Origin: Ascidia mentula
Lineage: Eukaryota > Chordata > Ascidiacea > Phlebobranchia > Ascidiidae
Direction of reading: 5' to 3'
Length of the DNA stretch: 64,000 nt
Assembly: GCA_947561715.1 (NCBI GenBank)
Contig: OX387197.1
Coordinates: 4,655,001-4,719,000 of the forward strand
Shown here: in pieces, positions 33,736 to 61,888 of the stretch
Position numbering within the stretch: the stretch's first letter is position 1
Layout: the number at the start of each line of letters is the position of its first letter
Position numbers and translations under genes: made by a program
The notes under the pieces: generated by a model
Seen by the model: only the letters and a program-made list of their open reading frames with translations
Databases searched by the model: none
What the model was told of the DNA's origin: nothing

Positions 33736-34620
33736 ATGTTGTCAAACAATACCAACACGGCTTCAAACAGCACTCTAAGCCGAACTGCACAATGTATCAT
33801 CGCAACATTCGACTTGACGTTTATTGTCCTGTCGCTTTGGATAGCAGTTGCACTCCTGAGCTACGGATTATCACGAAAGAAATTTTCAAAGAAAATGAAC
33901 TCGTCCCGAGCCTTATACATCGCAGGATGCGTTTCAGCAGTGTTGACAACCATTTACCACATATTTAACTTTGTTGTCCACCTGCCGTTGAGGAAACATG
34001 AAGCGTGCAAAAACGTAGCAAGGGCTGCCGTGGTAATGTTTGGTTATTCAATGACTTCCGTTTACGTCTTTCTTTGGATCAAGCAGAGAACTTTATACAA
34101 AAGTCGAGCGCTGGAGCACCTGTATACGCACAGAGTGATTCTGTTAAGTTACCTAAGCATCATTCTTTTGGTTATGGGTCTTAATATTGGCACGCTTGTG
34201 TTTATAATTATTAATAGTTATAATTCTGCCGGTATTGGTTGCAAACCAGCCGGAAAAATCCATACTTGGCCTTTTGTAGCAGGATCGGCATTTATTGCCA
34301 CTGGACAAGTCGTGATGCTCTGCCTCTTCATATATCCATTTTTGTGCGAAAAGGAGAAGCCAGGAATTGGTAGAGCGATGCGATTGGTGATACGATCCCT
34401 TGTGGTTGCGATGCTGTGTATTGTTACTGACATGGCTACCGGATTGGTGAACGCGTTTGTGCGCTTCGAGGCTTCCAAAACTATATTTGTTGCATACGGG
34501 TTTTCAGCTGCCATAAACTTGGTTGGAGTTTTAATCACATTTGAAACTTGGCGGGAAATTATTTTAAGTCCATTGAAAATTTGTAAATCTTCCGATCCTA
34601 TAGACATAACTGCAGTGTAA
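33736..34620 (+). CDS. 7TM receptor-like protein 1 (intronless)
   Basis: One exon, 294 residues; the ATG at 33736 follows non-ATG codons in frame. The N-terminus is rich in N-glycosylation sequons (NNT, NTNT, NST), fitting an outside N-terminus. Seven hydrophobic segments can be drawn. Cys before TM3 (HEACKNV) and in the TM4-TM5 loop (GCKPAG) match the GPCR disulfide pair. TM3 ends VFLWIKQRTLY instead of DRY; TM7 leads into TFETWREIILSP, with no NPxxY. The last residues ITAV fit a class I PDZ ligand. It is the most distant member of the cluster, sharing features with both subfamilies. A candidate 3' splice acceptor (TTATTGTTAG) ends about 30 bases before the ATG. Function unknown; receptor role is inference from topology. 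Confidence 0.85.
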   Translation: MLSNNTNTASNSTLSRTAQCIIATFDLTFIVLSLWIAVALLSYGLSRKKFSKKMNSSRALYIAGCVSAVLTTIYHIFNFVVHLPLRKHEACKNVARAAVVMFGYSMTSVYVFLWIKQRTLYKSRALEHLYTHRVILLSYLSIILLVMGLNIGTLVFIIINSYNSAGIGCKPAGKIHTWPFVAGSAFIATGQVVMLCLFIYPFLCEKEKPGIGRAMRLVIRSLVVAMLCIVTDMATGLVNAFVRFEASKTIFVAYGFSAAINLVGVLITFETWREIILSPLKICKSSDPIDITAV

Positions 34621-34727
34621 ACCCTATTTGCAACTGTATGTAGGCATTGCGAATGCAACTTGAACTACAGTCAATGCGATTTAGGTGATCTTGTATGCAT
34701 TTTGGTTTGTAAATATAACGCCGCCCA

Positions 34728-34733
34728 AATAAA
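34728..34733 (+). terminator. Poly(A) signal of 7TM gene 1
   Basis: AATAAA lies 107 bases after the stop codon of 7TM gene 1, a normal position for a short 3' UTR. Confidence 0.55.
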
Positions 34734-35898
34734 AGTAAACATGCCATACGTCAGTATCCGTTCAATGGTTAAAGCAGTCTTTGTTTTGGGGGGATTTCAT
34801 GGAAAAACTCCGTGTATTGAGCCACTATACTCGACTAGTGTGAATTTGTGCATTACACCACTGATATCTACTTCTGAACGTAAGGAAAACGCAAAGGGTA
34901 TATGACGTCTTCTGCAGGAAAGGAAAAAGGTTTAAGCGGTATTATGAAACACATAGTTCTATATTTTCTTAAAACAACATTTTAGGAGCACCTTGCTGTC
35001 TGTCAGAATAGTTCGCACTTAATAAAAACATAAAACATAAAAAATTGCGTCAGTCAATCAAAAATAAAAATCCTTTCAGACCATGTTTCAATAGACAACG
35101 GTCTAATTACATTGTACAACCACAAAGAAAAACATTTTAACATTGTCAATAATGCTTATTTACACCTTTGATGGGAAAAAGCGGGCCTGGCAAGACAAGC
35201 GATATATCTGTATTCGTAATGCAAATTGTTTCAGTAAATACCACACTTTACGAAGGGAAAATTGTATTGGCGTTAATGACACCAGGTATCTTCATTTAGG
35301 CAATTTCCAGGCAGCAAAAAAAAAAAATTTGCATTCGGTTTTTTCGTTCAATGAAACCAGCTGATTGTTTATGTTGCAGTCATTCAAGCGAAAATAAAAT
35401 AAATTGATTTGATTTGCAACGGACAAGAATAATTTTGATCACGTAGTCAAACAGACTGTCGAAAGTCTTTATTTAAAATTACCTATAAATGCCTTAACCG
35501 GATGAGTGGCCAACAATACCCCAAAATAGAGGTGTATATATATACGTAGCCTATACGGAGACAAATTAGACAAGAGACTGATGCACAGGAAACGCTTTTC
35601 ATAAACGATGGCTTTTACCTCGCTCCTCTGTACACACCATAAACTGAATAATGACTGCTTTCCGTATATTACCAGACCCATAAAATCGACATTGTTCTAG
35701 CCGGAAATGAACATAAAGGAAGCCACACTATACTGCACATGTGATAGTCAAGCTTCCTTATATTGGCCGACCTAACGTAACAAACAATGTACATACGGTA
35801 AATAAGGAAGCACCACATAGAACAAACAGGAGGAATGAGCAGAAGTAGAAAGCTTCACAGAACCTGTTTGCATTGCATTAGAGAGTCTGCGGGGTTAA

Positions 35899-35985
35899 CG
35901 TTTAGTTTTTCAGTGACTTCCGTTTACGTTTTTTCATAGATCAGGCAAGGAACTTTATACAAGAGGTTCGAACTGGTCCAAATTA
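35899..35985 (+). pseudogene. Relic of a 7TM gene 1 paralogue (TM3 end)
   Basis: Roughly 85 bases match 7TM gene 1 at about 34040-34118, covering the TM3 end and the KQR loop. The frame reads SVTSVYVF, then a stop, then IRQGTLYK. It directly follows a copy of gene 1's 5' flank, so a whole gene-1 unit was duplicated and all but this piece of the coding part was later lost or scrambled. Confidence 0.75.
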
Positions 35986-36250
35986 AACCATCCTACAATA
36001 CAACGTGAATAAAACAGTTTCGGCAGACTTTATAGACTTTATATTAATTTTGAAATATTTGCTTTTAACAAACGATACTTCACACTAAACACACGCGGTG
36101 GTAAAATTGAAAAAATGACGTCACGCCTGGGAAGTGGTTCAGCAGTTGTACGACGTTGAATTACGTTAAAATCTAACTTAGAGAAATGTATTCTTGCAAA
36201 CCTTCATTGTAGTAGAAGGTTGTTTTGTTGCTCATGTAATGGAATCAATC

Positions 36251-36336
36251 GGTCTTGTTTTGCAGAGCCTTACTATAGGAGTATTTACAACTGTAATATC
36301 AGTTGAAGGAAAAGTCAAAACGACAACAACAAGACG
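36251..36336 (+). promoter_or_regulatory. Conserved 5' module of 7TM gene 2
   Basis: It holds a 3' splice acceptor (CTTGTTTTGCAG then AGCCT), an AACTGTA motif and the start context ACAACAAGACGATG, all shared in order with genes 3, 4, 6, 7 and 8. The acceptor is about 70 bases before the ATG of a single-exon ORF. Confidence 0.6.
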
Positions 36337-37164
36337 ATGTCCACGTATGAACAATGGCTTGTGACATTGGCACTTGACCCAATCTGCCTACTTGTAACTC
36401 TTTGGATATTTTTGTCATTCCTGTGCTTTGGATTTCAACGAAGAAAGTTTTCAAAGAAAAATTCCTCACGAAATTTATATATATCAGCTTGTTTGTCGGC
36501 ATTTCTAACAATGATTTCCATTATTGGCCATTATTGTGTACATTTGCCTTTAAACGATGATCTCACCTGCAATATCATGACCAAAGCGACAGTGGCAATC
36601 TACGGCCTCGCAATGTCGTCAGTTTACATATTTCTTTGGCTCAAACAACGTTCTCTTTACAAGAGCAATTTATTAGAACATCTTTACAAAGGCATAGTGA
36701 AAGTGGCCAGTTATGTCGGCATCATTCTCTTAGTGACATCATTTAACATCGGCGCAATTGTGTTCATTAGCATTAACAACTTCGCCGCATCAAACATCAA
36801 TTGCAAGCCACTAGAACCTTTTCATGTCTGGCCTTTTTACATGGCATCTGTTGTAAATTTACTGGGTAACGTAACGATGTTGTGGCTTTTCGTCCATCCG
36901 TTTGTGTGCGCCAAAGACAAACCCGCAACCAAGGCTGCTTCCCGTTTAATCACCCGCACGCTTGTCTTGGTCGTCTTATGTGTTGCCAGCGACGTAGCAG
37001 TTGGATTTCTTAATGCTTTTTTGCCGCATATACTTACACGTCAGTTGTTCATTGGGTACGAATCCTCGTGTACACTCAACTTGATTGGGGTTTTATTGAC
37101 TTTTGAAATTTGGAGAAAAATTATTTTGAGTCCGTTTAAAATCTGTAAATCATCTTCAGGCTGA
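36337..37164 (+). CDS. 7TM receptor-like protein 2 (intronless)
   Basis: One exon, 275 residues, start MSTYEQWLVTLALDP. It belongs to the subfamily of genes 2-8: short N-terminus, RRKFSKKNSSRNLYISAC between TM1 and TM2, LTCNIMTKATV before TM3, VYIFLWLKQRSLYKS at the TM3 end, NCKPLEPFHVWPF in the TM4-TM5 loop, HPFVCAKDKPATKAASRL in the TM5-TM6 loop and LTFEIWRKIILSPFK after TM7. The tail is shorter than in genes 4, 6, 7 and 8, ending KSSSG and lacking the acidic end. Gene 3 lies convergently downstream. Role unknown; topology suggests a cell-surface receptor. Confidence 0.85.
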   Translation: MSTYEQWLVTLALDPICLLVTLWIFLSFLCFGFQRRKFSKKNSSRNLYISACLSAFLTMISIIGHYCVHLPLNDDLTCNIMTKATVAIYGLAMSSVYIFLWLKQRSLYKSNLLEHLYKGIVKVASYVGIILLVTSFNIGAIVFISINNFAASNINCKPLEPFHVWPFYMASVVNLLGNVTMLWLFVHPFVCAKDKPATKAASRLITRTLVLVVLCVASDVAVGFLNAFLPHILTRQLFIGYESSCTLNLIGVLLTFEIWRKIILSPFKICKSSSG

Positions 37165-38484
37165 CTTACTGTTATTCTTGTTTTTGACTGTAAAATTGAT
37201 TTGTGATTTCCACATATTATTATTATAGTTGGTAGAATGATAGGATATTATAGTGTTGTTACACAACAAATGTACATTCAACCTCTTCTGCCCGCATACC
37301 AGTGATGCTTCGAAAAAATGTGCAGCTTTGCTTTGCCTTGTTAGGACAATATTTTTTTCGAACTTTTCCTACTTGGTTTTACCCGTCGTACAGATGCTGG
37401 GCATACATCCCTGGCGTCACGTGTCTTTTAAAATGTCTTTTAGAGAATGAAACATTTTCTATTTATATGTTAACGAACGGCATTTTGTCAAAAGCAAATA
37501 TATCGAAACGAATATCAGCGTCCGCATACATTTTTGTATACTAAGCGAAAGTTGTTACTTAGTCATCAATTAAATAATGGCTGCTGTCCAGGAAAGTATT
37601 GTATCTTGCAATTGTTTTCCCGCTGTCGTCAAGTTTTGGCGGTTGGAAGGATACAACAATGGCCGATGCAGATCTTACCATTGATATACTGTGTAATCAT
37701 ATGTTTACTGTATATGCACATAGCTAACTTGGGATGGTTGATTTTTAGGGTGGGGTGGAAACATTAGGCCTGCTGTGTGTTGATCGATTCTTCCTAAAAA
37801 ACGACCACACGATGTCCAATACATAAATGTGTATTTACGGATATTTTTCTATTCCTACTTCTAAGAAAAGGTCCTTCCTACGACAAAGATTTACACCACA
37901 GCAGTAAATCATCGCTCAAGATAAATCGGATGTGGTGGCAATGTCCGTTGTTCGTTTAGTGTTGGGACGAACACAAGAGTTCAGGCAAACAACGTATGAA
38001 GTAGATTGAAGTACTGTCGGGCGCTTTGTGGACTAAATTGCCATCTAGTGTTGGTTTTTCAATGGAAAACCAGGTCCACACATAAATGATTTTGATTGGA
38101 ATGATTAGAATAAATATTTATATCAAAGCGGCAACAATAGAAGAGTGATACAACCGAACAGTTCACTTTGCGCCAACCTATAAAGAAACACTGACAATGC
38201 ACCTGTCTGCAATATTAACCAATCAGACACAAAAAGATTTTGCATAATTTAGCGAAAACATTTCATGTGATGATTAACCAGATACAAACTATTGACAGAA
38301 AAGAAAATGGCATCGAAAGTTGCAATATTTTCAAGCAAATACATGAATACAAAACAGTCCAATGGACGACCGCACCCTTCTGCATTGCAAAGGAATCGGT
38401 CAAGTCCTTCAATCCACGCGTTTGATATTTGAAGCTGAAGATGAGTCAAATATCATTCTCAAGTTCTGCATCGTCCGAAGGTTT
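37165..38484. repeat. Spacer of convergent pair gene 2 / gene 3
   Basis: About 37620-38460 matches the right part of the spacers after genes 4 and 6 (about 44220-44940 and 49075-49800) and, inverted, 53230-53955 after gene 8. No Penelope-like element is present here, and no gene is supported. It ends in the shared 3' tail sequence of gene 3. Confidence 0.7.
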
Positions 38485-39297
38485 TTAAAAGATTTTGAAC
38501 GGACTGAAAATAATTTCTCTCCAAGTCTCAAAAGTCATTAAAACTCCAATCAAGTTGAGCGTACACGAGACTCCGTACCCGATGAACAGCTGACGTTCAA
38601 GCTTATGTGGTAAAAACGCGTTCAACAATCCCGCCGCAAGGTCTGTGGTAACACATAAAACCACAGTAAAGAGGGTGCGTTTTAAAAGACGGGAAGCCGC
38701 CTTAGTTGCGAGTTTGTGTTTGGCGCACACAAATGGATGGACGAAAAGCCACAACATTGTTGCCTGACCCAATAAATTATTAAAGGATCCCATCAAAAAT
38801 GGCCATATGTGAAAAGGTTCCAATGGCTTGCAACTGGTGTTTGATGCGGCGAAGTTGTTGATGATACTAAAAAGAAATGTGCCGGAGTTAAATGAAGTTA
38901 CCAAGAGAATGATGCTGAAAAAACTGCCAACCTTCACTATGCCTTTGTGAAGATGTTCTAACAGACTGCTCTTGTAAAGAGAACGTTGTTTGAGCCAAAG
39001 AAATGTGTACACGGACGACATTGCGAGGCCACAGATTGCCACTATCGCTTTGGTCATAATATTGCAGGTGCTATCATTGTCCAAAGGCAAATGAACACAC
39101 AAATTGAGGAGGAAGCAAAATATTGACAGAAATGCTGCAGTACAAGCTGAAATAAATAAGTTCCGTGAGGAACTTGTCTTTAAAAATTTTCCTTGTTGAA
39201 ATCCAAAGCACACGAACGACAAAAATATCCAAAAAGACAGAAAAACGGAAAATGAGACAGATGCCAACGTTAAAATCCATTCATCATAAGTAGACAT
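38485..39297 (-). CDS. 7TM receptor-like protein 3, tail cut by a stop codon
   Basis: One exon, 270 residues, start MSTYDEWILTLASVS. It has all seven hydrophobic segments, STCNIMTKA before TM3, TFLWLKQRSLYKSS at the TM3 end, SCKPLEPFHIWPF in the second outer loop and TFETWREIIFSPFKIF at the end. The stop TAA stands where genes 5 and 7 have AAA (lysine). Beyond it the codons for KPSDDAELENDI and a second stop are still in frame, so one substitution removed the acidic tail very recently. The membrane core is intact, so the gene may still work without its C-terminal signal. It is convergent with gene 2 and divergent from gene 4. Confidence 0.85.
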   Translation of the reverse strand: MSTYDEWILTLASVSFSVFLSFWIFLSFVCFGFQQGKFLKTSSSRNLFISACTAAFLSIFCFLLNLCVHLPLDNDSTCNIMTKAIVAICGLAMSSVYTFLWLKQRSLYKSSLLEHLHKGIVKVGSFFSIILLVTSFNSGTFLFSIINNFAASNTSCKPLEPFHIWPFLMGSFNNLLGQATMLWLFVHPFVCAKHKLATKAASRLLKRTLFTVVLCVTTDLAAGLLNAFLPHKLERQLFIGYGVSCTLNLIGVLMTFETWREIIFSPFKIF

Positions 39298-39385
39298 CGT
39301 CTTGTTGTCTTTATAACTTTGTCCTCAGTTTTTTATGGAACTACAGTTATATATACTCTTACCCTGGTCTCTGCAAACAACAGAC
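39298..39385 (-). promoter_or_regulatory. Conserved 5' module of 7TM gene 3
   Basis: Read on the minus strand it holds an acceptor (TGTTGTTTGCAG), then AGTATATATAACTGTAGT, then the start context ACAACAAGACGATG, in the same order and spacing as in genes 7 and 8. Confidence 0.6.
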
Positions 39386-42312: not shown

Positions 42313-42398
42313 TTGTTTTCAGAGCATATACTAAGGGCTTAAATAACTGTAGTACCCTGTGAAGTTGCGGACAAAGTTAAAAGGACGACAACAAGACG
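42313..42398 (+). promoter_or_regulatory. Conserved 5' module of 7TM gene 4
   Basis: TATTGTTTTCAG (acceptor), ATAACTGTAGTACC and GACAACAAGACGATG appear in order, nearly identical to the module before gene 6 and similar to genes 2, 3, 7 and 8. Confidence 0.6.
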
Positions 42399-43250
42399 AT
42401 GTCTATTTACGTTGAATGGATTGAGACATTGGCAACAGGCCCACTTTGCATTTTTCTGACGTTTTGGTTATTTTTATCGTTCGTGTGCTTTGGATTACAA
42501 CGAAAAAAGTTTTCAAGGAAAAATTCTTCACGGAACTTGTACATATCAGCTTGTACCGCAGCATTTCTATCATTGATTTCCGTCCTCTTCAATTTGTGTG
42601 TGCATTTGCCTTTGAACGATAATCGCACTTGCAATATTATGACCAAAGCGACAGTGGAAATGTACAGTCTAGCTAGTTCGTCAACTTACATATTTCTTTG
42701 GCTTAAACAACGTTCTCTTTACAAGAGCAATTTGTTAGAACATCTTTACAAAGGCGTAGTGAAGGTGGCCAGTTATTTCAGCATTATTCTCTTAGTGACA
42801 TCGTTTAACATTGGCACAATTGTGTTCATTAGCATTAACAACTTTGCCGCATCAAACATCAGTTGCAAGCCATTGGAACCTTTCCACACTTTTTCATTTT
42901 TGGTGGCATCTGCTGTTGATTTCCTGGGTCAGGCAACGATGTTGTGGCTTTTCGTCCATCCGTTTGTGTGCGCCAAAGACAAACCCGCAACCAAGGCGGC
43001 TTCCCGTCTTTTAAAACGCACACTCTTCATTGTGGTCCTATGTGTTACCACAGACCTTGTGGCGGGAATGTTGAACGCGTTGTTACCGTATGAACTTACA
43101 CGTCAGTGGTTCATTGGGTTCGGATCCACGGTTACATTCAACTTGATTGGAGTTTTAATGACTTTTGAGACTTGGAGAGAAATTATTTTCAGTCCGTTCA
43201 AAATCTGCAAAAAGCCTTCGGACGATGCAGATCTTGAGACTGATATTTGA
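42399..43250 (+). CDS. 7TM receptor-like protein 4 (intronless)
   Basis: One exon, 283 residues, start MSIYVEWIETLATGP. It is nearly identical to gene 6, its tandem copy. Motifs in order: RKKFSRKNSSRNLYISAC, RTCNIMTKATVEMYSL, YIFLWLKQRSLYKS, SCKPLEPFHTFSF, HPFVCAKDKPATKAASRLLKR, LCVTTDLVAGMLNALLP, LTFETWREI-like TM7 end MTFETWREIIFSPFK. The acidic tail ends ETDI, which fits a class I PDZ-binding motif (T at -2, I at 0). The two outer-loop cysteines are present. There is no N-glycosylation sequon in the short N-terminus. Function unknown. Confidence 0.88.
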   Translation: MSIYVEWIETLATGPLCIFLTFWLFLSFVCFGLQRKKFSRKNSSRNLYISACTAAFLSLISVLFNLCVHLPLNDNRTCNIMTKATVEMYSLASSSTYIFLWLKQRSLYKSNLLEHLYKGVVKVASYFSIILLVTSFNIGTIVFISINNFAASNISCKPLEPFHTFSFLVASAVDFLGQATMLWLFVHPFVCAKDKPATKAASRLLKRTLFIVVLCVTTDLVAGMLNALLPYELTRQWFIGFGSTVTFNLIGVLMTFETWREIIFSPFKICKKPSDDADLETDI

Positions 43251-44934: not shown

Positions 44935-44937
44935 TCA

Positions 44938-45607
44938 AATATCAGTCTCCAGTTCTGCATCGTCCGAAAGTTTTTTAAAGATTTTGAACGGACTGAAAAT
45001 AATTTCTCTCCAAGTCTCAAAAGTCATTAAAACTCCAATCAAGTTGAGTGTACACGTGGATCCGTAACCGATAAACAACTGACGTGTAAGTTTATGTGGT
45101 AACATCGCGTTCAGCAATCCCGCCGTAACGTCTGTGGTAACACATAGAACCACAATTAAGAGCGTGCGTTTCAAAAGACGGGAAGCCGCCTTGGTTGAAG
45201 GTTTGTCTTTGGCGCACACAAACGGATGGACGAAAAGCCACAGCATCGTTGCCTGACCCAGTAAATTGATAGCTGATGCCACCAAAAATGGCCATGTATA
45301 AAAGGGTTCCAATGGCTTGCAACTGATGTTCGATGCGGCGAAGTTGTTAATGATACTGAACACAATTGTGCCAATGTTAAAGGAAGTCATTAAGAGAATG
45401 ATGCTGAAATAAATTAGAGAGAACGGAAAACATTGACAGAAATGCTGCGGTACAAGCTGAAATGTACAAGTTCCGCGAGGAATTTTTCTTTGAAAATTTT
45501 CCTTGTTGAAATCCAAAGCGCACGAATGACAAAAATATCCAAAACGACAGAAAAATGCAAAATGGGCTGAGTGCCAATGTTACAATCCAATCATCGTAAG
45601 TAGACAT
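44938..45607 (-). pseudogene. 7TM receptor-like gene 5, 179-base deletion
   Basis: It starts MSTYDDWIVTLALSP and matches gene 7 until the end of TM2 (VLSNL). It then jumps to the TM4 sequence FSIILLMTSFN in another frame, continuing to the normal tail SDDAELETDI. Compared with gene 7, 179 bases are missing, covering the outer cysteine, TM3, the KQR motif and the second inner loop (about 60 codons). The length is not a multiple of three, so the frame breaks. Only two bases (AA) are shared at the junction, as in end-joining repair. All downstream sequence is well conserved, so the loss is recent and followed the 5.1 kb duplication. Confidence 0.9.
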
Positions 45608-47534: not shown

Positions 47535-48386
47535 ATGTCTATTTACGTTGAATGGATTGAGACATTGGCAACAGGCCCACTTTGCATTTTTCTGACGTTT
47601 TGGATATTTTTGTCATTCGTGTGCTTTGGATTACAACGAAAAAGGTTTTCAAGGAAAAATTCCTCACGAAACTTGTACATATCAGCTTGTACCGCAGCAT
47701 TTCTATCATTGATTTCCGTCCTCTTCAATTTGTGTGTGCATTTGCCTTTGAACGATGATCGCACTTGCAATATTATGACCAAAGCCACAGTGGCGATCTA
47801 CAGCCTGGCTAGTTCGTCAACTTACATATTTCTTTGGCTCAAACAACGTTCTCTTTACAAGAGCAATTTGTTGGAACATCTTTACAAAGGCATAGTGAAG
47901 GTGGCCAGTTATTTCAGCATCATTATCTTGGTGACATCGTTTAACATCGGCACAATTGTGTTCATTAGCATTAACAACTTCGCCGCATCAAACATCAGTT
48001 GCAAGCCACTAGAACCTTTCCACACTTTTCCATTTTTGGTGGCATCTGCTGTTGATTTCCTGGGTCAGGCAACGATGTTGTGGCTTTTCGTCCATCCGTT
48101 TGTGTGCGCCAAAGACAAACCCGCAACCAAGGCGGCTTCCCGTCTTTTAAAACGCACCCTCTTCATTGTGGTCCTATGTGTTACCACAGACCTTGTGGCG
48201 GGAATTTTGAACGCGTTGTTACCGTATAAACTTACAGGTCAGTGGTTCATTGGGTTCGGATCCACGATTACATTCAACTTGATTGGAGTTTTAATGACTT
48301 TTGAGACTTGGAGAAAAATTATTTTCAGTCCGTTTAAAATCTGTAAAAAGCCTTCGGACGATGCAGATCTTGAGACTGATATGTGA
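47535..48386 (+). CDS. 7TM receptor-like protein 6 (intronless)
   Basis: One exon, 283 residues, the tandem partner of gene 4 with only a handful of amino-acid differences (for example RKRFSRKN for RKKFSRKN and the tail end ETDM for ETDI). All hallmarks are present: RTCNIMTKA, YIFLWLKQRSLYKS, SCKPLEPFHTFPF, CAKDKPATKAASRLLKR and TFETWRKIIFSPFK. The frame is uninterrupted, unlike the minus-strand gene of the neighbouring unit. Its spacer downstream carries the second Penelope-like copy. Probably a plasma-membrane receptor by topology; ligand and coupling unknown. Confidence 0.88.
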   Translation: MSIYVEWIETLATGPLCIFLTFWIFLSFVCFGLQRKRFSRKNSSRNLYISACTAAFLSLISVLFNLCVHLPLNDDRTCNIMTKATVAIYSLASSSTYIFLWLKQRSLYKSNLLEHLYKGIVKVASYFSIIILVTSFNIGTIVFISINNFAASNISCKPLEPFHTFPFLVASAVDFLGQATMLWLFVHPFVCAKDKPATKAASRLLKRTLFIVVLCVTTDLVAGILNALLPYKLTGQWFIGFGSTITFNLIGVLMTFETWRKIIFSPFKICKKPSDDADLETDM

Positions 48387-49789: not shown

Positions 49790-50641
49790 TCAAATATCAT
49801 TCTCAAGTTCTGCATCGTCCGAAAGTTTTTTAAAGATTTTGAACGGACTGAAAATAATTTCTCTCCAAGTCTCAAAAGTCATTAAAACTCCAATCAAGTT
49901 GAGTGTACACGTGGATCCGTAACCGATAAACAACTGACGTGTAAGTTTATGTGGTAACAACGCGTTCAGCAATCCCGCCGTAACGTCTGTGGTAACACAT
50001 AGAACCACAATTAAGAGCGTGCGTTTCAAAAGACGGGAAGCCGCCTTGGTTGAAGGTTTGTCTTTGGCGCACACAAACGGATGGACGAAAAGCCACAACA
50101 TCGTTGCCTGGCCCAGAAAATTGATAGCAGATGCCACCAAAAATGGCCATGTATAAAAGGGTTCCAATGGCTTGCAACTGATGTTCGATGCGGCGAAGTT
50201 GTTGATGATACTGAACACAATTGTGCCGATGTTAAAGGAAGTCATTAAGAGAATGATGCTGAAATAACTGGCCACCTTCACTATGCCTTTGTAAAGATGT
50301 TCTAACAACTTGCTCTTGTAAAGAGAACGTTGTTTGAGCCAAAGAAATATGTAAACAGACGACATTGCGAGGCTGTAGATTGCCACTGTCGCTTTAGTCA
50401 TAATATTGCAGGCGCGATCATCGTCCAAAGGCAAATGCACACACAAATTAGAGAGAACGGAAAACATTGACAGAAATGCTGCGGTACAAGCGGAAATAAA
50501 CAAGTTCCCCGTGGAATTTTGCTGTGAAAATTTTCCTTGTTGATATCCAAAGCACACGAATGACAAAAATATCCAAAACGTTAGAAAAATGCAAAGAGGA
50601 CTGAGTGCCAACATTACAATCCAATCATCATAAGTAGTCAT
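49790..50641 (-). CDS. 7TM receptor-like protein 7 (intronless)
   Basis: One exon, 283 residues, start MTTYDDWIVMLALSP. It is the intact counterpart of pseudogene 5. It shows QQGKFSQQNSTGNLFISAC, RACNIMTKATVAIYSLAMS, YIFLWLKQRSLYKSKLLEHL, SCKPLEPFYTWPF, CAKDKPSTKAASRLLKR, LCVTTDVTAGLLNALLP and MTFETWREIIFSPFK. The acidic tail ends ENDI. Outer cysteines are both present. It is divergent from gene 8 and convergent with gene 6. Receptor role is inferred from seven hydrophobic segments and the disulfide pair. Confidence 0.88.
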   Translation of the reverse strand: MTTYDDWIVMLALSPLCIFLTFWIFLSFVCFGYQQGKFSQQNSTGNLFISACTAAFLSMFSVLSNLCVHLPLDDDRACNIMTKATVAIYSLAMSSVYIFLWLKQRSLYKSKLLEHLYKGIVKVASYFSIILLMTSFNIGTIVFSIINNFAASNISCKPLEPFYTWPFLVASAINFLGQATMLWLFVHPFVCAKDKPSTKAASRLLKRTLLIVVLCVTTDVTAGLLNALLPHKLTRQLFIGYGSTCTLNLIGVLMTFETWREIIFSPFKIFKKLSDDAELENDI

Positions 50642-52378: not shown

Positions 52379-53227
52379 ATGTCAACTTACGATGAATGGA
52401 TTGTAATATTGGCACTCAGCCCATTTTGCATTTTTGCGTCTTTTTGGATATTTTTGTCATTCGTGTGCTTTGGAATACAGAAAAGAAAGTTTTCAAAGAC
52501 AAATTCCTCACGAAACTTGTTCGTTTCAGCTTGTACCGCAGCATTTCTGACAATGATTACCATTCTCTTCAATTTGTGTGTGCATTTGCCTTTGAACGAT
52601 GATCTCGCCTGCAATATCATGACCAAAGCGGCAGTGGCAATGTACACCATTTCGATGTTGGCAGTTTACATATTTCTTTGGCTCAAACAACGTTCTCTTT
52701 ACAAGAGCAGTCTGCTGGAACATCTTTACAAAGGCATAGTGAAGGTGGCCAGTTATTTCAGCATCATTCTCTTCATGACTTCAGTTATCGGAATACCTGT
52801 GTTCAGTATCATCAACAACTTCGCCGCATCAAACATCAGTTGCAAGCCATTGGAACCCTTCAACTCATGGACATTTTTGGTGGCATCTGCTATTAATTTC
52901 CTGGGCCAGGCAACGATGTTGTGGCTTTTCGTCCATCCGTTTGTGTGCGCCAAACACAAACCCGCAACTAAGGCGGCTTCCCGTCTTTTAAATCGCACAC
53001 TCTTCATTGTGGTCTTATGTATTATCTCAGACCTTACGGCGGGATTGCTCAACGCGTTTTTGCCGCACAAACTTACACGTCAGTTGTTCATTGGGTACGG
53101 AGTCTCGTGTACACTCAACTTGATTGGAGTTTTAGTGACTTTTGAGACTTGGAGAGAAATTATTTTCAGTCCGTTTAAAATCTGTAAAAAACCTTCGGAC
53201 GATGCAAAACCTGAGAATGATATTTGA
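52379..53227 (+). CDS. 7TM receptor-like protein 8 (intronless)
   Basis: One exon, 282 residues, start MSTYDEWIVILALSP. It has KRKFSKTNSSRNLFVSAC, LACNIMTKAAVAMYTI, YIFLWLKQRSLYKSSLLEHL, SCKPLEPFNSWTF, CAKHKPATKAASRLLNR, LCIISDLTAGLLNAFLP, VTFETWREIIFSPFK and the tail end ENDI. One residue is missing in TM4 relative to genes 4, 6 and 7 (MTSVIGIPV against MTSFNIGTI), the only length change in the core. Its 3' flank is a mosaic of cluster spacers and it has no convergent partner. Confidence 0.87.
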   Translation: MSTYDEWIVILALSPFCIFASFWIFLSFVCFGIQKRKFSKTNSSRNLFVSACTAAFLTMITILFNLCVHLPLNDDLACNIMTKAAVAMYTISMLAVYIFLWLKQRSLYKSSLLEHLYKGIVKVASYFSIILFMTSVIGIPVFSIINNFAASNISCKPLEPFNSWTFLVASAINFLGQATMLWLFVHPFVCAKHKPATKAASRLLNRTLFIVVLCIISDLTAGLLNAFLPHKLTRQLFIGYGVSCTLNLIGVLVTFETWREIIFSPFKICKKPSDDAKPENDI

Positions 53228-54240
53228 CTTAACTTCAGCTTTAAATATCAAACGCATGGATCAAAGGAGTTAATTGAAACCTTTACAATGCAGGAGGGTG
53301 CGGTCATTCATTTGGTTGTTTTGTATTCTTGTGTTTGCTTGAAAATGTTGTAACTTTCGAAACAATTTTCTTTTCTGTCAATAGTTTGTATCTGGTCATT
53401 CATCACATGACATTGTTTCGCTAAATTATGCAAATCTTTGTGTCTGATTGGTTAATATTGCAGACAGGTGCATTGTCAGTGTTTCTTGAAAGGTATTGTG
53501 CGAAATGAACTCTTCAACTTGGTCGCTCTTTCCAGCCATTGAATGTTCACAATGCAAAAATCCCTAATTTTACCCCCTATTGAAGTTTCCATTTGTTGCC
53601 GTTTTGATATCAATGTTTTCATCATTCAGATTAAAATCACCTCATTTTTGCGTGGACTCACTTCTAAAATCTCTACGTTTTCCAATGAAAAAACAAATTA
53701 AATGGTAACTTAGTAAAAGGCTCTAGTGCGCCCGACAGTACTTTATTCACAACTATACATCATAAGCTGTTTGCCTTAACTCTTGTGTTCGTCCCAACAA
53801 TAAGCGAACAGCGGACATTGCCATCATATCCGATTTATATTCAGCGATGATTTACTGCTCTGGTGTAAATCTTTGTCGTAAGCAGGACCTTTTCTTAGAA
53901 GTAGCAATGGAAAAAATGTGTTAACACGCATTTATGTATTGGGCATCGTGTAGTCGTTTCCTAGGGAAGGAAATACAATTGATCACTGAGCATGTCAATG
54001 CATTACAATGTTCGTACCAACCCTTCAAAAATCAACCATCTCAAGTTATTATGTGCATACAAACAAAATATATATGATTGCACTATATTACAAAAGCAAA
54101 TCTGTAACGGCCTTGTAAAACTATGACTTCGGCGGGAATAAATTGCAAGATGTAATAATTTCCTGGGCAGCAAATTCTTAATGTTAAGCCATTATTTAAT
54201 TGATGACTAAATTAACGACTTCCGTTTTGTACACAAAAAT
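53228..54240. repeat. Rearranged spacer after 7TM gene 8, with empty Penelope site
   Basis: About 53230-53955 is the reverse complement of spacer sequence at about 37800-38440. About 53960-54235 is then a forward copy of the sequence after gene 4 (43290-43380 joined to 44055-44200) but without the Penelope-like insertion. At about 54040 a single CTCAAGTTATTATG stands where genes 4 and 6 have an insertion flanked by direct repeats. Confidence 0.75.
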
Positions 54241-54818
54241 GTATGTGGAAGTGACGACAATAACGGAAAATTAGATTAACATGTTCAAACAAGGGTTTAG
54301 CAGAGAATGTATACTTGTATCATTGATAGGACAAAAAAAGCAAAGGCAACCGTAAACAAATGCATGGTGTTGAAGTATAAGTTCTAGAAGAGCACATACA
54401 CAAAGGTGTTTTCGTACACGAACAGCTGCACTTTGGGTAGTTGTGTTTGGCGTTTAACGAGAGGATGTTTTTATTTTGCTTTAGGTATATGATAGCAAAC
54501 CACATAGAGGATATATGGATATATCGTAGTTTCCCTGCACAAAAGCTAAATTTTATGAGATGTTTTTTTGAGGTGAAGCTTTAGTACTTATTAGCACAGA
54601 TTTTCTCTGAAACGCCGTGGTTCGCGACAACTGTGCTTAGAAAGTTGGCATACGATGAAATTAAGGCTGGTAACCATAGCGTACGTAAACTTTTGCATGT
54701 TTTATGGAGTGTGAAAGCAAATTCGTACATGCTTCCCAAAGCAACCTATCTCTTGATTTACCATTAAACAAGGAATAAAATCAATCTGATAAAACTTTTA
54801 ATCTCAAGGTTTTTAGTA
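54241..54818. other. 5' flank of 7TM gene 9, no gene
   Basis: No coding gene is seen. A motif pair (GACTAAATTAACGACTTCC at about 54205, then ATGTGGAAGTGACGACAATA) also occurs upstream of gene 11 (about 60364-60420) and in part of gene 10's flank (about 57515-57565). Right before the ATG stands GGTTTTTAG, a possible splice acceptor only two bases from the start codon. Confidence 0.5.
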
Positions 54819-55736
54819 ATGGGTGAAAATCAATCTGACAATGGTTTGTTGATCGTCAACGGGACGACTGCAAAACAAATCCCGTGGATTGCAGCGACAT
54901 CATCCGACGCAGTTTGCTTTCTACTGTCTTTGTGGATATTTCTCTCCTTCCTGAGTTATGGAATCCGACGCAGAAAGTTTGCGAACAAAGTAAAGTCTGT
55001 CCGCATTTTATACATATCTGCATGTACAGCGGCCTTTTCAACGACCGTTTATCTCCCAATTAAAATCGCGTTGGATTTGCCGTGGAAGAGCAACAAGACT
55101 TGCGATGTTCTCTCGGAAATTGCGGTCGAGTTTTACGCCATTTGCACTTCCTTCGTGTATTTGTTTCTATGGATCAAGCAACGGTCATTGTATCAAAAGC
55201 GATTGTTGGAAGATCTTTTCAAGGGCTGGGCGGTGGTCTTAAGTTACCTCAGCGTAATTTTTATGATTTTGGGCCTTAACTTAGCCGCAATTATTTTGAA
55301 CGTGATCAATGAATATGGATCGTCTGTTTATGGTTGCACGCACATAAACACTTACCACACCTGGCCATTTCTCGTCGGTTCAGCCATCAATGCTTCAGGA
55401 CAAGGCATGATGCTTGTTTTGTTTATTTACCCCTTAAAGAAAGCCAAGAACAAGTCTCAAACCGGTACAGGGTTTCGTCTGCTCAAACGTTCCCTTGTGA
55501 TAACAGTAATGTGCATTATAAGTGATGCTGTCACCGGTATTGTCAACACGTTTGTGCCTTTTTCTCTTTACCGAACGCCCTTCGTTGCGTACGGCCCTAC
55601 AACTGCTTTAAACTTAATGGGAGTGATGCTGACGTTTGACACGTGGAAGGAAATTATTATGAACCCGCTAAAGAAGTCCCGACCACAACAGCGCAGCGAG
55701 ACGTTAGCAAGTCGAAAACACGTGACTAACACTTAA
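54819..55736 (+). CDS. 7TM receptor-like protein 9 (intronless)
   Basis: One exon, 305 residues, first of the second subfamily (genes 9-11). The N-terminus has sequons NQS and NGT (IVNGTTAKQIPWIAAT). Then RRRKFANKVKSVRILYISAC, DLPWKSNKTCDVLSEIAVE before TM3, VYLFLWIKQRSLYQKRLLEDL at its end, YGCTHINTYHTWPF in the second outer loop, GQGMMLVLFIYPLKKAKNK, LLKRSLVITVMCIISDAVTG and LTFDTWKEIIMNPLKK. A basic tail replaces the acidic tail of genes 4-8. The outer cysteine pair is kept. All three members of this subfamily point the same way with spacings of about 3 kb, so they arose by direct tandem duplication. Confidence 0.87.
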   Translation: MGENQSDNGLLIVNGTTAKQIPWIAATSSDAVCFLLSLWIFLSFLSYGIRRRKFANKVKSVRILYISACTAAFSTTVYLPIKIALDLPWKSNKTCDVLSEIAVEFYAICTSFVYLFLWIKQRSLYQKRLLEDLFKGWAVVLSYLSVIFMILGLNLAAIILNVINEYGSSVYGCTHINTYHTWPFLVGSAINASGQGMMLVLFIYPLKKAKNKSQTGTGFRLLKRSLVITVMCIISDAVTGIVNTFVPFSLYRTPFVAYGPTTALNLMGVMLTFDTWKEIIMNPLKKSRPQQRSETLASRKHVTNT

Positions 55737-57891
55737 TCAGTCTGTTGGCAAGCATCCGTTGGAAGTTTATGTATACGTTATTCTGTTTGGTCGTCTGCCG
55801 TTAAGTAACGCTACCAGGCTACTTGTACTTTCGTTTCATATCTAGTACTTTTTCCTTCAAAGTGAATTGATGCATGTTTACCAAACTGATTTACCATCAT
55901 GTACGTTATGAAACTTACAAGTTGTATTGTCTCACATTCGCAAAATCTTTTTGCCTACCATTATGCCTATGTCTATAAGAATCACGTAACTGTAAATTTC
56001 ACGACAAAGAATGCGTGAATCGTTTTATCTCGGGGCCGTATCATCTAGGGACGAATTCAATAGAAATTGCAATGAAAAAATGCATCTTGCTTTAGTGTTG
56101 TTGTTTTTGTTTTTCTGTACGGAAGCACAGAGGTCAAGATGAAATGCTCAAGCGACATAAAGATGTTGATAGCTTTCCATTTCAGTGATTTCTTTACATA
56201 CAACCAAAGGACGATTTTTTTTAACTGAGTAACTGCATGTGGTACACGGCTATGCGACACGGTGCAGTTTATTTATTTTTCTATCAAAATGAACCAAATC
56301 GTAAGGGTGCACGATAAGTCACTTCGACTAAAGGTCTGAGAATTTTGATCAAAGCATTAACAGTACAATATAAAGAGAGATCCAAAGCCCCACAGTTAAA
56401 TGTCAATCAATTGTAATTATACATGCCAGTTATTTTGCTGCAGAAAGTTTAGTTTTCAGAATTTGATCAGTTACCAAATGACCCTGACGACGAAGACGCA
56501 ATGATTGTTATGGCAAAGGTCTATCGAGTGACTGCCTGGGTGTATGTCTCAACAATCAATCTTGTGCATTCAATGGAATACTCTTTAATCCAAATAAATG
56601 GGTCAAAACGCCAAGCCGACGAATAGCTTGTTGCGTCTCAGTATTATAGCACTGTCTTGTCACAGTGATCATAGAATCGAATTAGCCATGTAATGAGACT
56701 ACCGATAAACTTATAGACTGGTTTGAAAAAAGCAAAATGAAGGGATTTTTTTCAATCTCATCTTTACTGCATACACATACATGAAATCAAACGGTCATAA
56801 CAGTAAAACAACGGGCTCCACTTCCTCGTTCCCTAGTTGAACCAATCAGCAACTAAAAGTTCAACTCCCACCAACTCATCAAATGCTTCGTGCAAAAAGG
56901 CGGTATCACGTGACGTGGCTGGAACAGCGACACAAAAGGGAAGAGGAAAAAGGTAACTTTAAGCAAATTGAAGTATTTTTTTTATCGCTTATCAACATTG
57001 ATTTCATTTTGCCAGACCCTATATGTGATTTTTCTAACCGTGTGTTTCTCAACACGTCATTTATAAACAATGAAATACCCTTAAAAGTCAAATTAGTTGG
57101 TTTTGCTGACAAGCCTAAGATGAACAAATACAAAGCTTTTTGAAAATTGCACGAATGGGAGTTTGTGGTTGGTGCGAACGTAGAGTTTAGAAACCGCCAC
57201 GGAACTGATACTGCCTCAACCATGGTAGCGTTTTGTTATTTGTTTACGCCAGAGCATTATGATATCATTGGTAATCACCGGACAATCAACTCCCATAGTG
57301 GCATATTACTCTGTGAGATCAATCTTCAACACAGGAAAGACAGCGACCTCATCTTTTTGGTACAACAGGTTATTTACCGTTTTTGATAGAAATGAAACTC
57401 TGTAAAATGGCAACTGATTTTTCCTTACAAAAATACGCCTTAAATGTAAAGTCATATTTAGTCGCTGAAACGTTCTTTCAAACTATACTTTTGGCCCTCA
57501 TAAAAAAACTAAACGAGCGATTGCCTCCCTTGCAATGAAATATATGCGGAAGCGATGACTAACACCAGGTCATCAAATTTAAATAAGGACGGATCAAAGT
57601 TTTAAACCTGCTTCTCTCCGGCGAAGAATGACATAGAGAAGAAATCATTTGTAGAGATGCAGGTTTCAGGTTGCATAATCCCGTACATGCTTTGTAGCGA
57701 CAATGGTATACAACTAGCAAAAAGTGACATAATTTGTATGAATTTATGTAGCATGCTGCAGAATGTATCACATTGTTTAGTGATTTTCTGATGACGAAAA
57801 ACTGTAAATTCCAATTACTTTATGACCAGTCAGACATTTAAACAAAAATCAGTACATTTCCTCAAAAATATAAGATATAAAAGTGTTCAAA
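55737..57891. other. Intergenic gene 9 / gene 10
   Basis: Nothing coding is supported. Two adjacent plus frames at 56883-57143 and 57147-57386 show no domain or signal and are left out. A fragment of the shared upstream element lies at about 57515-57565. Confidence 0.55.
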
Positions 57892-58791
57892 ATGAATAAA
57901 AGTAAATCTAACGATGTTATGTTGATTGTCAACGGGACGATTGAAACCCAGATATCGTGGATTGCAGCGACATCAACCGACGCAGTTTGCTTCCTAATAT
58001 CTTTGTGGATATTCATGTCGTTCCTAAGCTATGGAATCAAGCGCAAGAAGTTTTCAAACAAGACGAAGTCTGTCCGCATTTTATACACAACAGCTTGTGC
58101 AACGGCATTTTTCACGACCGTTTTCCTTCCAATTAAAATCGCGTTGAATTTGCCTTGGAAGAGTAACAAGACTTGCGATCTTCTCTCCTTGTTTGCGGTT
58201 GAGGTTTACGCCGTAGCTGTTACGTTCGTGTATTTGTTTCTATGGATCAAGCAACGAACATTGTATCAGAAGCGATTGCTGAAAGATCTGTACAAGGGCT
58301 GGGCGGTGGTGGTAAGCTACCTCAGTGTAACTTTAATGGTTATCGGAGTCAACTCAACAACAATAATATTCAATGTGATAAACGAATATGGATCGTCTGT
58401 TTACGGTTGCAGGTTCGTAAACAAATTTCACACCTGGCCCTTCTTGATGGGATCCGCAGTCAATGTTTTGGGACAAGGCATGATGCTTGTTTTGTTTATT
58501 TACCCCTTGAAGAAAGCCAAGAACAAGTCCCAAAATGGTACAGGACTGCGCCTACTCAAACGTTCCCTTGTGATAACATTGATGTGCATTATGAGTGACG
58601 CTGTCGCCGGTATTGTCAACACGTTTGTGCCGTATTCTTTTTACCGCACGTCGTTCGTTGCCTACGCCCCCACAGCTACCTTAAATCTAATTGGTATTCT
58701 GCTCACATTTGAAACGTGGAAAGAAATAATTTCCATCTCTTGGCGCAGATCCGGACCACCTGCAGGGCAGCGGGGATTCAGTATGTCATAA
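57892..58791 (+). CDS. 7TM receptor-like protein 10 (intronless)
   Basis: One exon, 299 residues; the ATG at 57892 (MNKSKSNDVMLIVNGT) is chosen because the three codons before it contain no ATG. Second subfamily: KRKKFSNKTKSVRILYTTAC, LPWKSNKTCDLLSLFAVEVY, VYLFLWIKQRTLYQKRLL, YGCRFVNKFHTWPF, GQGMMLVLFIYPLKKAKNK, LLKRSLVITLMCIMSDAVAG, LTFETWKEIISISWRR. After TM7 the NPL of genes 9 and 11 is replaced by an ISW stretch, and the tail is unrelated to theirs. The N-terminal NGT sequon is conserved. It is the most diverged of the trio. Confidence 0.87.
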   Translation: MNKSKSNDVMLIVNGTIETQISWIAATSTDAVCFLISLWIFMSFLSYGIKRKKFSNKTKSVRILYTTACATAFFTTVFLPIKIALNLPWKSNKTCDLLSLFAVEVYAVAVTFVYLFLWIKQRTLYQKRLLKDLYKGWAVVVSYLSVTLMVIGVNSTTIIFNVINEYGSSVYGCRFVNKFHTWPFLMGSAVNVLGQGMMLVLFIYPLKKAKNKSQNGTGLRLLKRSLVITLMCIMSDAVAGIVNTFVPYSFYRTSFVAYAPTATLNLIGILLTFETWKEIISISWRRSGPPAGQRGFSMS

Positions 58792-60958
58792 ATAGATGAC
58801 AAATGGCCGATTAGTTCGTTCATGAGTATACGTCGTTTGGTTTATGGTTTACGTATGTCCGGCCCCGAATCTATGGGTAAACTTACCCGACAATTAATCT
58901 GCTCATTCTAAAGGCCTTTGCTATAAAACCTGACAATCGAAAATGAATTGGAAAATTTAACATCATCTTATAATGGCAGCAGATAATTTGAACCACAGCA
59001 ATATCATTAACACTTTGGTGTGGTTATTTAATTTGTGTCGAAAATTTTTCGCTTCCGTCGCTCTAAATATTATTGTCCTTTTATGCTTGAGATTTCTAAT
59101 TTGCCAGAGAAAATTTTTCGAACCTTGTATATATTACATGGAGAATTTTGTTTGGTTTGCAGGCTTGGCAACCCAGGCGATGCAGCCTAGCTGGATCAGT
59201 CACTTTTTCCTGACAAGTCGGAGCAAGATTCAAATCTTGTCTGGGCTGCCAAGCTTGCAAACCTAATGATCGTGATACGATGGCTGCGATCGCCAAGCAA
59301 GGACCTGCGCAGTGGGGCTATCCTGCTGATCATGCCATTGCATGAAATATTACTGCGTAGCCTATATGGGAAATTATTTTCAGTTAGTTTCAAACCTCGG
59401 AAAATGCTTGGACGCATGCCAATACTTATAAGATGTGCAACCTCATCAATGTAGCATTCTCCTCCATTTGCTTTTATTGTGTTTCTTACTGGATTTTGAG
59501 CGTGATGTAAAATACTTGAACCCATGTATTTTGGATTGTTTTTGCAGGCGGGAGCGTAGCTAGCGTAAGAACAAAATCACGCAGAGTGTTAATTTGTTTT
59601 TGTTTATATTGTTAAGATTCAAACGATGTGCTTGCTTCCGAAACTAAATTTTCTGATGTTTTTTGCGTATTTCTAAATATTTGATCAATTTTCAACAACC
59701 AGTCAAGCTAACGACGGGCGATGGGAGATGGGAATGTGTTAAATGCACGTTTAATTGTCGGTTGCATGTTGCACCCATCAGAGTGAGGATGGTGTAAACC
59801 TGATGAATGCAGCCAGGATGTTTTTAATATAGCAGCTTCACTATTCCTAATAATGAACAACGTTAACTGTGTCCCGCGCAAAAGCTGATGCTTGTCTAGA
59901 CTGCATCAGTAGAGTTTGTTAAAGTTAATACTTGTCCGGATCGCAGTTGTAGCATTTGCAGTGGTGTTTTCTTACGTTTTTTAATCAGTTTGCTCTCTCG
60001 TTCTTAATATTATTTTTTCAAACGCAAGTTTTGAAAATCTCACACGATAATGCAATTTCGAATAAGAAAACAAAGTTTTGATGGCTCAGTTCCCTGAATC
60101 TTTTTTGAGTTAGTGATCTCACTCGTTGTCCCTAAGCACAACGTCCTTCTTGTGTACGCCAGGGCATCAGATAATCACCGGTAAACACCGATGGACCATC
60201 ACCTATGTGATAACTTTACTGCGAAATAATCGTCGTTTACGATGCAAACAGGACTGAAAACCACTCAAGTATTGCTGGTATAATGAATCGTTGCAATGAT
60301 TTGATGCAAAGTCATTTGTTGGACACCGTAATCCGTAACTGTCATTTTAATGCACCTTTTCGTGACTAAATCGACGACTTCCTTTCCTTGCACAAAACTT
60401 GATGTGGAAGAGATGACTAACGGAAGACCATTTAACATACTATGATGAGGAAGCACCACCGTGTGTCTGAGCTAATATATTTACCTCTGCTACACGGTCA
60501 TAGAGAATTTATTCGTTGCAGAGATACGATGGACAATGTATATAAAGGAAGGTAGTGTGATAAACATCGTACAATGTGGTGTTGTGTCCGAATGAAGAGC
60601 ATTAGTTCTAGTTGTGTCAATAAGTAAATATATTATAAAATATTATGGAAACCTACACCAGTGGATCGTAAAGCAGCAAGATAGGTTTTATTTATCAATA
60701 TATGATCCTAGACACAACCAAGGAAAAAACGAGTTGGATTTTGATTTAGTTGAGGCAATACGCTACGCCAGACATCCATACTTGTATGTATAGCCCTTGG
60801 TAAAATGTATCGCAAAAGCTATTTTCTTACATACACGTGCACATGTACATGTAAATTAATTATTACTGACTTGATTGTTTGAGCCCTTTTCCAATGATCG
60901 ATCTGCTGATCACTGGTAGACACATTAGGCTACAAAACCCATTGAATGACATCGCTAA
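58792..60958. other. Intergenic gene 10 / gene 11
   Basis: No gene is supported. It contains the foldback described at 59154-59263 and, at about 60364-60420, the GACTAAATCGACGACTTCC / ATGTGGAAGAGATGACTAAC element shared with the flank of gene 9. Confidence 0.55.
59154..59263. repeat. Foldback with tRNA-like box A and box B
   Basis: Two 23-base arms (59154-59176 and 59241-59263) are inverted copies with two mismatches. Between them TAGCTGGATCAG (about 59188) resembles a polymerase III box A and AGATTCAAATC (about 59227) a box B, 28 bases apart. It could be a tRNA pseudogene or part of a tRNA-derived SINE. A convincing anticodon arm was not found. Confidence 0.35.
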
Positions 60959-61888
60959 ATGGAAGTATTCAAAATGAATGAAAATGATTCCAGTGACGGT
61001 TTACTCATTGTAAACGGGACAATTGAAACCCAGATATCGTGGATTGCAGCGACATCATCCGACGCAGTTTGCTTTCTACTGTCTTTGTGGATATTCGTGT
61101 CGTTCCTAAGCTATGGAATCAAGCGCAGAAAGTTTTCAAACAGAAGAAAATCTGTTCGCACTTTATACATATCAGCTTGTGCATCGGCCTTTTCAGCGAC
61201 AGTTTATCTTCCAATTAAAATCGCGTTGGATTTGCCGTGGAAGAGCAACAAGACTTGCGATGTTCTCTCGGAAATCGCGGTTGAGTTATACGTGATATCT
61301 ACTTCGTTCGTATATTTATTTCTATGGATCAAGCAACGGTCATTGTATCAAAAGCGATTGCTGAAAGATCTGTACAAGGGCTGGGCGGTAGTGATAAGTT
61401 ACCTCAGTGTAATTTTAATGATTTTTGCGCTTAATTCTGCTGCAGTCGTTTTTAACGTGATAAACGAATATGGATCGTCTGTTTATGGTTGTACGCACTT
61501 AAACAGATTTCACACCTGGCCATTCCTTGTTGGATCCGCAATCAATGCCACCGGACAAGGCATGATGCTTGTTTTGTTCATTTATCCCTTAAAGATAGCC
61601 AAGAACAAGTCTCAAACCGGTACAGGGTTTCGTCTGCTCAAACGTTCCCTTGTGATAACAGTGATGTGCATTATAAGTGACGCTGTCACCGGTGTTGTCA
61701 ACGCGTTTGTGCCGTTTTCCTTTTACCGAACACCCTTCATTGCGTACGGCCCAACAACTGCTTTGAATTTAATCGGAGTGATGCTGACGTTTGACACGTG
61801 GAAGGAAATCATTATGAACCCATTGTATGGAGGCAGGCCACTGCAGCGCGGCGGGGCTTTTAGCAGGTCCCAAACACGTGACTCATAA
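60959..61888 (+). CDS. 7TM receptor-like protein 11 (intronless)
   Basis: One exon, 309 residues from the first ATG (MEVFKMNEN); the in-frame ATG at 60974 (MNENDSSDG) aligns better with the starts of genes 9 and 10 and would give 304. Second subfamily, close to gene 9: KRRKFSNRRKSVRTLYISAC, LPWKSNKTCDVLSEIAVELY, VYLFLWIKQRSLYQKRLLKDL, YGCTHLNRFHTWPF, GQGMMLVLFIYPLKIAKNK, LLKRSLVITVMCIISDAVTG, LTFDTWKEIIMNPLYG. N-glycosylation sequons NDS and NGT lie before TM1. It is the last member seen in the window; no further 7TM gene was found in the remaining 2.1 kb. Confidence 0.87.
   Translation: MEVFKMNENDSSDGLLIVNGTIETQISWIAATSSDAVCFLLSLWIFVSFLSYGIKRRKFSNRRKSVRTLYISACASAFSATVYLPIKIALDLPWKSNKTCDVLSEIAVELYVISTSFVYLFLWIKQRSLYQKRLLKDLYKGWAVVISYLSVILMIFALNSAAVVFNVINEYGSSVYGCTHLNRFHTWPFLVGSAINATGQGMMLVLFIYPLKIAKNKSQTGTGFRLLKRSLVITVMCIISDAVTGVVNAFVPFSFYRTPFIAYGPTTALNLIGVMLTFDTWKEIIMNPLYGGRPLQRGGAFSRSQTRDS

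Follow-up and report, generated by a model that had tools for sequence, protein, structure and literature searches.

Which receptors serve smell and taste in tunicates is an open question. According to the available portion of a review by Poncelet and Shimeld (2020; PMC7776563), the odorant receptors (ORs), V1Rs and V2Rs known from vertebrates and the receptors of insects and nematodes have not been found in tunicates, TAARs are disputed, and alternative tunicate receptors are probable. Because the known chemoreceptor families are missing by this account, alternatives are to be expected. A 64,000-nucleotide stretch of chromosome 1 of the phlebobranch sea squirt Ascidia mentula (4.655–4.719 Mb; hereafter the window) raises the question of whether one such alternative lies within it. 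A first-pass annotation of the letters alone had described a cluster of intronless seven-transmembrane (7TM) receptor-like genes there, had assigned them to no known family, and had proposed a chemosensory role. We find that its observation was right, and understated. The window genes belong to a large tunicate family that has a signature of its own and a predicted G protein-coupled receptor (GPCR) fold.

Positions 33736–61888 of the window hold ten ATG-to-stop frames of 270 to 309 residues, eight on the forward strand and two on the reverse. Between 33.0 and 62.5 kb there are ten frames of at least 265 residues, whereas only one of 100 second-order Markov resamplings contained any (longest 269 residues). 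The ten proteins can be aligned end to end (alignment A1; residue numbers are those of gene 1). The open reading frame (ORF) list and this alignment bear out the annotated frames and their accompanying pseudogene, together with seven hydrophobic segments, an outer Cys pair, and the sequences FLW[IL]KQR[ST]LY at the end of transmembrane helix 3 (TM3) and TF[ED]xW at the end of TM7. Pairwise identities of 71–95% among genes 2–7, 72–82% among genes 8–10 and 42–48% between gene 1 and the rest likewise agree with the proposed division into two subfamilies plus gene 1. Within the two subfamilies the ratio of nonsynonymous to synonymous divergence (dN/dS, NG86) is 0.20–0.70, and the copies are therefore constrained on average; between the subfamilies, dS is near saturation or past it.

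Some copies show signs of decay. Gene 3 lacks the final 13 residues of its 283-residue siblings. The pseudogene retains the start of a gene and, in another frame, its 3′ half, which departs from gene 6 at about three residues (counted by eye); the part between them, where the FLWxKQR motif would lie, has been lost. Flanking sequence is also shared: AACTGTAGT lies about 50 bases upstream of the ATG in genes 3–7, with the counterpart AACTGTAAT in gene 2, and AAGACG stands immediately upstream of the ATG in genes 2–7. The duplications therefore included the upstream region, and AACTGTAGT with a leader ending in AAGACG is possibly a common promoter element that was duplicated along with the genes. 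The array runs past the window, where three further family frames of another subfamily (at 4.728, 4.751 and 4.755 Mb of chromosome 1) bring it to 13 genes.

The family has a clear signature. Nine residues are invariant in all ten window proteins (C91, W114, K116, Q117, R118, Y121, C169, F269 and W272). In a wider set of 44 family members (alignment and profile A2), which underlies the counts of signature, charge, Pfam matches and entropy given below, C91, W114, K or R at 116, C169, R220, and S or T at 231 are present in every member. Other positions are kept in most members, including Q117 (42/44), R118 (40/44) and Y121 (42/44) at the end of TM3, and L197 (42/44), F198 (40/44), P201 (42/44), D232 (41/44), N261 (41/44), F269 (43/44) and W272 (38/44) further on. 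Read in order, the signature is Cys, W-x-[KR]-Q-R-x-x-Y, Cys, L-F-x-[YH]-P, S/T-D, and N...F-x-x-W. The basic residue at position 116 lies 25 residues past C91, the same distance that separates C3.25 and R3.50 in class A receptors; it thus stands at the place of the Arg of D-R-Y. Six more distant members all keep W-x-R-Q, and five of them keep the full W-x-R-Q-R-x-x-Y, the exception (L084) being divergent after W-x-R-Q. The loop 2 Cys is apparently missing from one member found later (L082).

The annotated 7TM receptor architecture is supported by structure prediction and by charge. AlphaFold2 (AF2) models of genes 1 and 8, which have moderate model confidence (pLDDT 73.5 and 68.5), gave 20 and 26 Foldseek matches, respectively, in the Protein Data Bank (PDB) at E ≤ 1e-3, and the entries listed are GPCRs only. 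Matches of the gene 1 model include endothelin ETB, NTSR1, CXCR3 and CCR5, and those of the gene 8 model include FPR1/2 and C3aR. A helix 8 is seen in both models, and a loop 2 hairpin in that of gene 1. Lys and Arg are in excess on the predicted inner side in 44/44 members, which by the charge rule places the N-terminus outside, and an N-terminal glycosylation sequon occurs in 33/44. The Cys at the top of TM3 is probably disulphide-bonded to that of loop 2, as both residues are present throughout the 44-member set. On these models, the window genes encode a receptor family of tunicates with a predicted GPCR fold. An assignment to a GPCR class from the fold was rejected, as a second fold comparison ties classes A, C, D and T and microbial rhodopsins.

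The absence of a family assignment also withstood closer searching. A Pfam scan places none of the ten window proteins in any family at its cut-off, and NCBIfam gave no match for the four proteins tried. Across the 44 members, for which the family cut-offs were seen for the first member only, 18 Pfam families are touched at E ≤ 0.1, each by one or two members (best E 2.6e-4), and the sole GPCR families among them are Srsx (0.02, 2/44) and Srv (0.015, 1/44). We therefore rejected membership in a known Pfam or NCBIfam family, the candidates Anthrone_oxy (0.019), DUF4501 (2.6e-4) and Srsx each being matched by only 1–2 of 44 members. The searches were also examined for a strong match to some membrane family other than receptors, and none turned up. 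For comparison, Pfam 7tm_1 matches three class A proteins that A. mentula encodes at 1.2e-26 to 1e-57, and the 7tm_1 matches listed for the genome do not overlap the family places when compared by eye. The 44-member profile has no match among PDB sequences at E ≤ 1 or E ≤ 10, a protein search with gene 1 alone found none among 2906 candidates, and hhalign gave a probability of 0.4% in a comparison with five class A sequences from this genome, of which two are partial. Conversely, the profile recovers 59/59 family rows, including 15 that were not used in building it (weakest 2.9e-17), and at E ≤ 10 none of five class A and none of 59 reversed sequences. This recovery, together with the clean controls and the null family searches, indicates that at the sequence level the family holds together and stands apart. 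Two other candidate identities were rejected as well. A scan of viral contigs with A1 yielded 48 pattern-matching stretches, none of them a relative, which disposes of a viral origin; and the ten window proteins, read by eye from A1, have no lysine in helix 7 and hence no retinal site, which rejects an opsin.

The window array is a small part of the family. We located 211 family places in the A. mentula genome by joining E ≤ 1e-3 matches from seven own-genome searches with seven members, some weak matches among which may be false. At 158 of these places there is an open frame of at least 265 residues with a stop-free match, and the remaining 53 hold fragments, frames with internal stops or frames that are too short. 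A place was not counted as open where a fuller match shows a stop, with the exception of gene 3, which was counted although its genome match crosses the early TAA. The last query still added new branches, and the family is therefore not exhausted and the counts are lower bounds. The members that were read are single-exon. Clustering is pronounced, with 114 of the 158 open frames lying within 30 kb of another, whereas 500 random placements gave a mean of 7.5 and a maximum of 22. Other large arrays comprise 15 genes at 6.43–6.48 Mb, seven at 4.45–4.48 Mb and six at 4.68–4.70 Mb of contig C71, seven at 8.56–8.58 Mb of contig C67, and six at 9.58–9.59 Mb of contig C70. Thus, the chemoreceptor-like genomic pattern that had been noted in the window (one-exon genes, clustering, near-identity within subfamilies and gene death) is supported by the identities, the pseudogene and the arrays.

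Relatives also occur in other tunicates. Profile searches reach Ciona and Phallusia proteins that are annotated as uncharacterized or as generic GPCRs. Those of Ciona are C. intestinalis LOC144743464 and LOC144742452 (both uncharacterized) and a protein labelled “GPCR family 1 profile”; that of Phallusia mammillata takes its name from LOC100187425. Four of the six proteins from two such searches, each of which scored about 8000 candidates sharing most words, are from named tunicates. The Ciona and Phallusia relatives fall on branches other than those of the window genes in a tree that, like the tree of family members, is quick and long-branched.

Table 1. Receptor genes, pseudogene and neighbouring frames in the window (positions counted from its first nucleotide).
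Feature	Positions	Strand	State and length	Remarks	Basis
Gene 1 (P0001)	33736..34620	+	Intact, 294 residues	7TM receptor; alone on its own branch	ORF list, A1, tree, AF2 model
Gene 2 (P0002)	36337..37164	+	Intact, 275 residues	Subfamily of genes 2–7	ORF list, A1, tree
Gene 3 (P0003)	38485..39297	-	270 residues	Early TAA shortens the C-terminal tail	ORF list, A1, genome match
Gene 4 (P0004)	42399..43250	+	Intact, 283 residues	95% identity to gene 5, dN/dS 0.20	
Pseudogene	44935..45607	-	Frame broken	Gene 6-like; middle including TM3 and motif gone	
Gene 5 (P0005)	47535..48386	+	Intact, 283 residues		
Gene 6 (P0006)	49790..50641	-	Intact, 283 residues		ORF list, A1
Gene 7 (P0007)	52379..53227	+	Intact, 282 residues		ORF list, A1
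Gene 8 (P0008)	54819..55736	+	Intact, 305 residues	Subfamily of genes 8–10	ORF list, A1, AF2 model
Gene 9 (P0009)	57892..58791	+	Intact, 299 residues		ORF list, A1
Gene 10 (P0010)	60959..61888	+	Intact, 309 residues		ORF list, A1
Neighbouring frame	29201..31489	+	762 residues, one exon	Six CUB domains; adjoins the receptor array	
Neighbouring frame	10152..12017	+	622 residues, single open frame, apparently one exon	Ras, EF-hand-associated and Roc domains	

The domain make-up of the 622-residue neighbouring frame is that of the mitochondrial GTPase Miro (RHOT). Elsewhere in the genome, open frames of about 1,080–1,680 residues that match 7tm_1 are clustered at 0.81–0.91 and 15.11–15.23 Mb of C69 and at 10.34–10.52 Mb of C70. 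These are large class A receptors in arrays, perhaps resembling the expansion of LDLRR-GPCRs described for Ciona in the available text of a GPCR survey (PMC2396169). Also on C70, the interval 13.968–13.991 Mb combines a class A-matching frame (at 13.976 Mb) with new-family members some 7 kb away from it.

What might these receptors do? We consider the sensing of environmental chemicals by chemosensory GPCRs to be the best single explanation, and a rather probable one. The product of each one-exon gene would have its short N-terminus outside the cell, seven helices with a disulphide from the top of the third to extracellular loop 2, and a helix 8 that is likewise short. The distribution of variation across the membrane is consistent with varied ligands and one shared partner inside the cell. 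Mean entropy is 2.39 bits in the outer and 1.94 bits in the inner helix halves of the 44 proteins, and 1.19 and 0.73 bits in those of the ten window proteins, and in neither set do any of 10000 column shuffles reach the difference; TM6 of the 44-member set is reversed (outer 2.08, inner 2.29 bits). The outer halves, which are the most divergent between paralogues, could thus form a small-ligand site, as in GPCRs. Better kept are the inner halves, which would bind a G protein and which carry W-x-[KR]-Q-R-x-x-Y where helix 3 ends, L-F-x-[YH]-P where helix 5 ends, S/T-D and an Arg common to all 44 members in helix 6, and N...F-x-x-W where helix 7 ends. Like the disulphide, the chemosensory role itself is a proposal, as are the binding of ligands, coupling to a G protein and expression in sensory cells. 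Divergent G-alpha-i proteins encoded on three chromosomes have been described in Ciona (dvGai; available text of PMC12176390), and might be candidate partners of such divergent receptors.

The same genes could instead be GPCRs for internal ligands, that is, receptors for peptides, lipids or danger signals on blood cells or in the gut, driven by an arms race in the manner of formyl peptide and chemokine receptors. Peptide and chemoattractant receptors are frequent among the fold matches, and tandem arrays with gene decay would suit immune receptors as well. However, these fold matches discriminate neither class nor ligand, the family is large for a set of internal-signal receptors, and the proposed Ciona counterpart discussed below, if it belongs to the same family, resides at exposed cell tips of the papilla. 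We therefore regard this explanation as unlikely, though it deserves some weight. A role in gamete attraction, spawning or the recognition of individuals, mediated by sperm, egg or self-recognition receptors, would also favour rapid turnover, and could account for strong divergence between subfamilies alongside near-identity within them. Against it, A. mentula is solitary according to the title of PMC11109543, and about 160 members are many for such a role, which makes it improbable.

Seven helices would also fit proteins that are not GPCRs, such as ligand-gated channels resembling insect ORs, transporters or light-driven rhodopsins. Yet the orientation predicted for all 44 members is opposite to that of insect ORs, a retinal site is missing from the window proteins, and the Cys pair, the modelled helix 8 and the loop 2 hairpin are GPCR features, leaving this explanation little credence. 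Finally, the array could reflect a largely inert amplification of retrogenes that have no shared function, which would fit single-exon members and the quarter or so of places (53/211) that are broken or short. This possibility is disfavoured, and we consider it the most remote of those weighed here, as three-quarters of the places (158/211) are open, dN/dS is well below 1, residues are invariant over 44 divergent members, and related genes have been kept in Ciona and Phallusia.

The family may also supply most of the chemoreceptors of tunicates as their main repertoire, forming a GPCR class of its own in which W-x-[KR]-Q-R replaces D-R-Y, with about 160 or more intact one-exon genes in A. mentula, present in at least Ascidia, Phallusia and Ciona, and replacing lost odorant receptors. 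We judge the case for this broader proposal to be evenly balanced. If true, the sister group of vertebrates substituted its own receptor class for the lost odorant receptors. More generally, the results point to a chordate that has formed a class of odour receptors of its own out of a lineage missed by the standard GPCR profiles tried here.

Among known systems, class A GPCRs, including vertebrate odorant receptors, resemble the family in fold, orientation, the Cys pair of TM3 and loop 2, and helix 8. Odorant receptors are also encoded by one-exon genes in arrays, as is the family. However, none of the 44 members matches Pfam 7tm_1 at E ≤ 0.1 or the odorant receptor profile 7tm_4, and N1.50, D2.50, D-R-Y, C-W-x-P and N-P-x-x-Y are absent from the family consensus and from the invariant columns of A1 and A2. 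The class T TAS2Rs have a similar fold, but the family yields no match to the TAS2R profile, and its Cys pair, found in 44/44 members, is not known from TAS2Rs. The N-terminus of insect ORs is inside the cell, whereas the charge rule gives the opposite orientation for every family member, and 7tm_6 and 7tm_7, the profiles of insect ORs and gustatory receptors (GRs), find no match. Nematode serpentine receptors such as Srsx and Srv are comparable as a lineage-limited, chemoreceptor-like expansion; their matches to the family are nonetheless stray, and ordinary class A receptors of the same genome fit Srsx and Srx better.

Within tunicates, the accessible text of the 2008 survey of Ciona GPCRs lists no olfactory receptors and leaves 23 proteins as “other rhodopsins” (PMC2396169). 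The closest parallel is the family of Ciona KH.C3.516, described by Johnson et al. (2020; PMC7397655). As far as the available text of that paper goes, KH.C3.516 encodes a 7TM protein of orphan status and has relatives in tandem; its family is large and gave no BLAST matches outside tunicates, and the gene is specific to axial columnar cells of the papilla, where a GFP fusion is concentrated at the exposed (apical) tip; the authors suggested a role as tunicate chemosensory receptors. Like the family described here, that family is 7TM, large, arranged with tandem neighbours and proposed to be chemosensory, whereas its description in the same text includes neither a signature motif nor a fold. 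In Ciona, such a family of tunicate 7TM proteins has probably been glimpsed before, and its possible identity with the family of KH.C3.516 is a strong lead. Of the “undescribed receptor family of tunicates” that the first-pass annotation had envisaged, the tunicate receptor family stands but “undescribed” does not. Beyond Johnson et al., a literature search of titles and the beginnings of abstracts, with few subscription papers and preprints covered, returned no paper that defines the family by motif or fold, and a search on the motif strings found nothing. The present results show the size of the family in A. mentula, its signature, its predicted fold and its occurrence in three genera. With a signature, a GPCR fold and the places of the genes in hand, a suggestion that arose from one Ciona family becomes a concrete set of candidates for the receptors of tunicate smell and taste.

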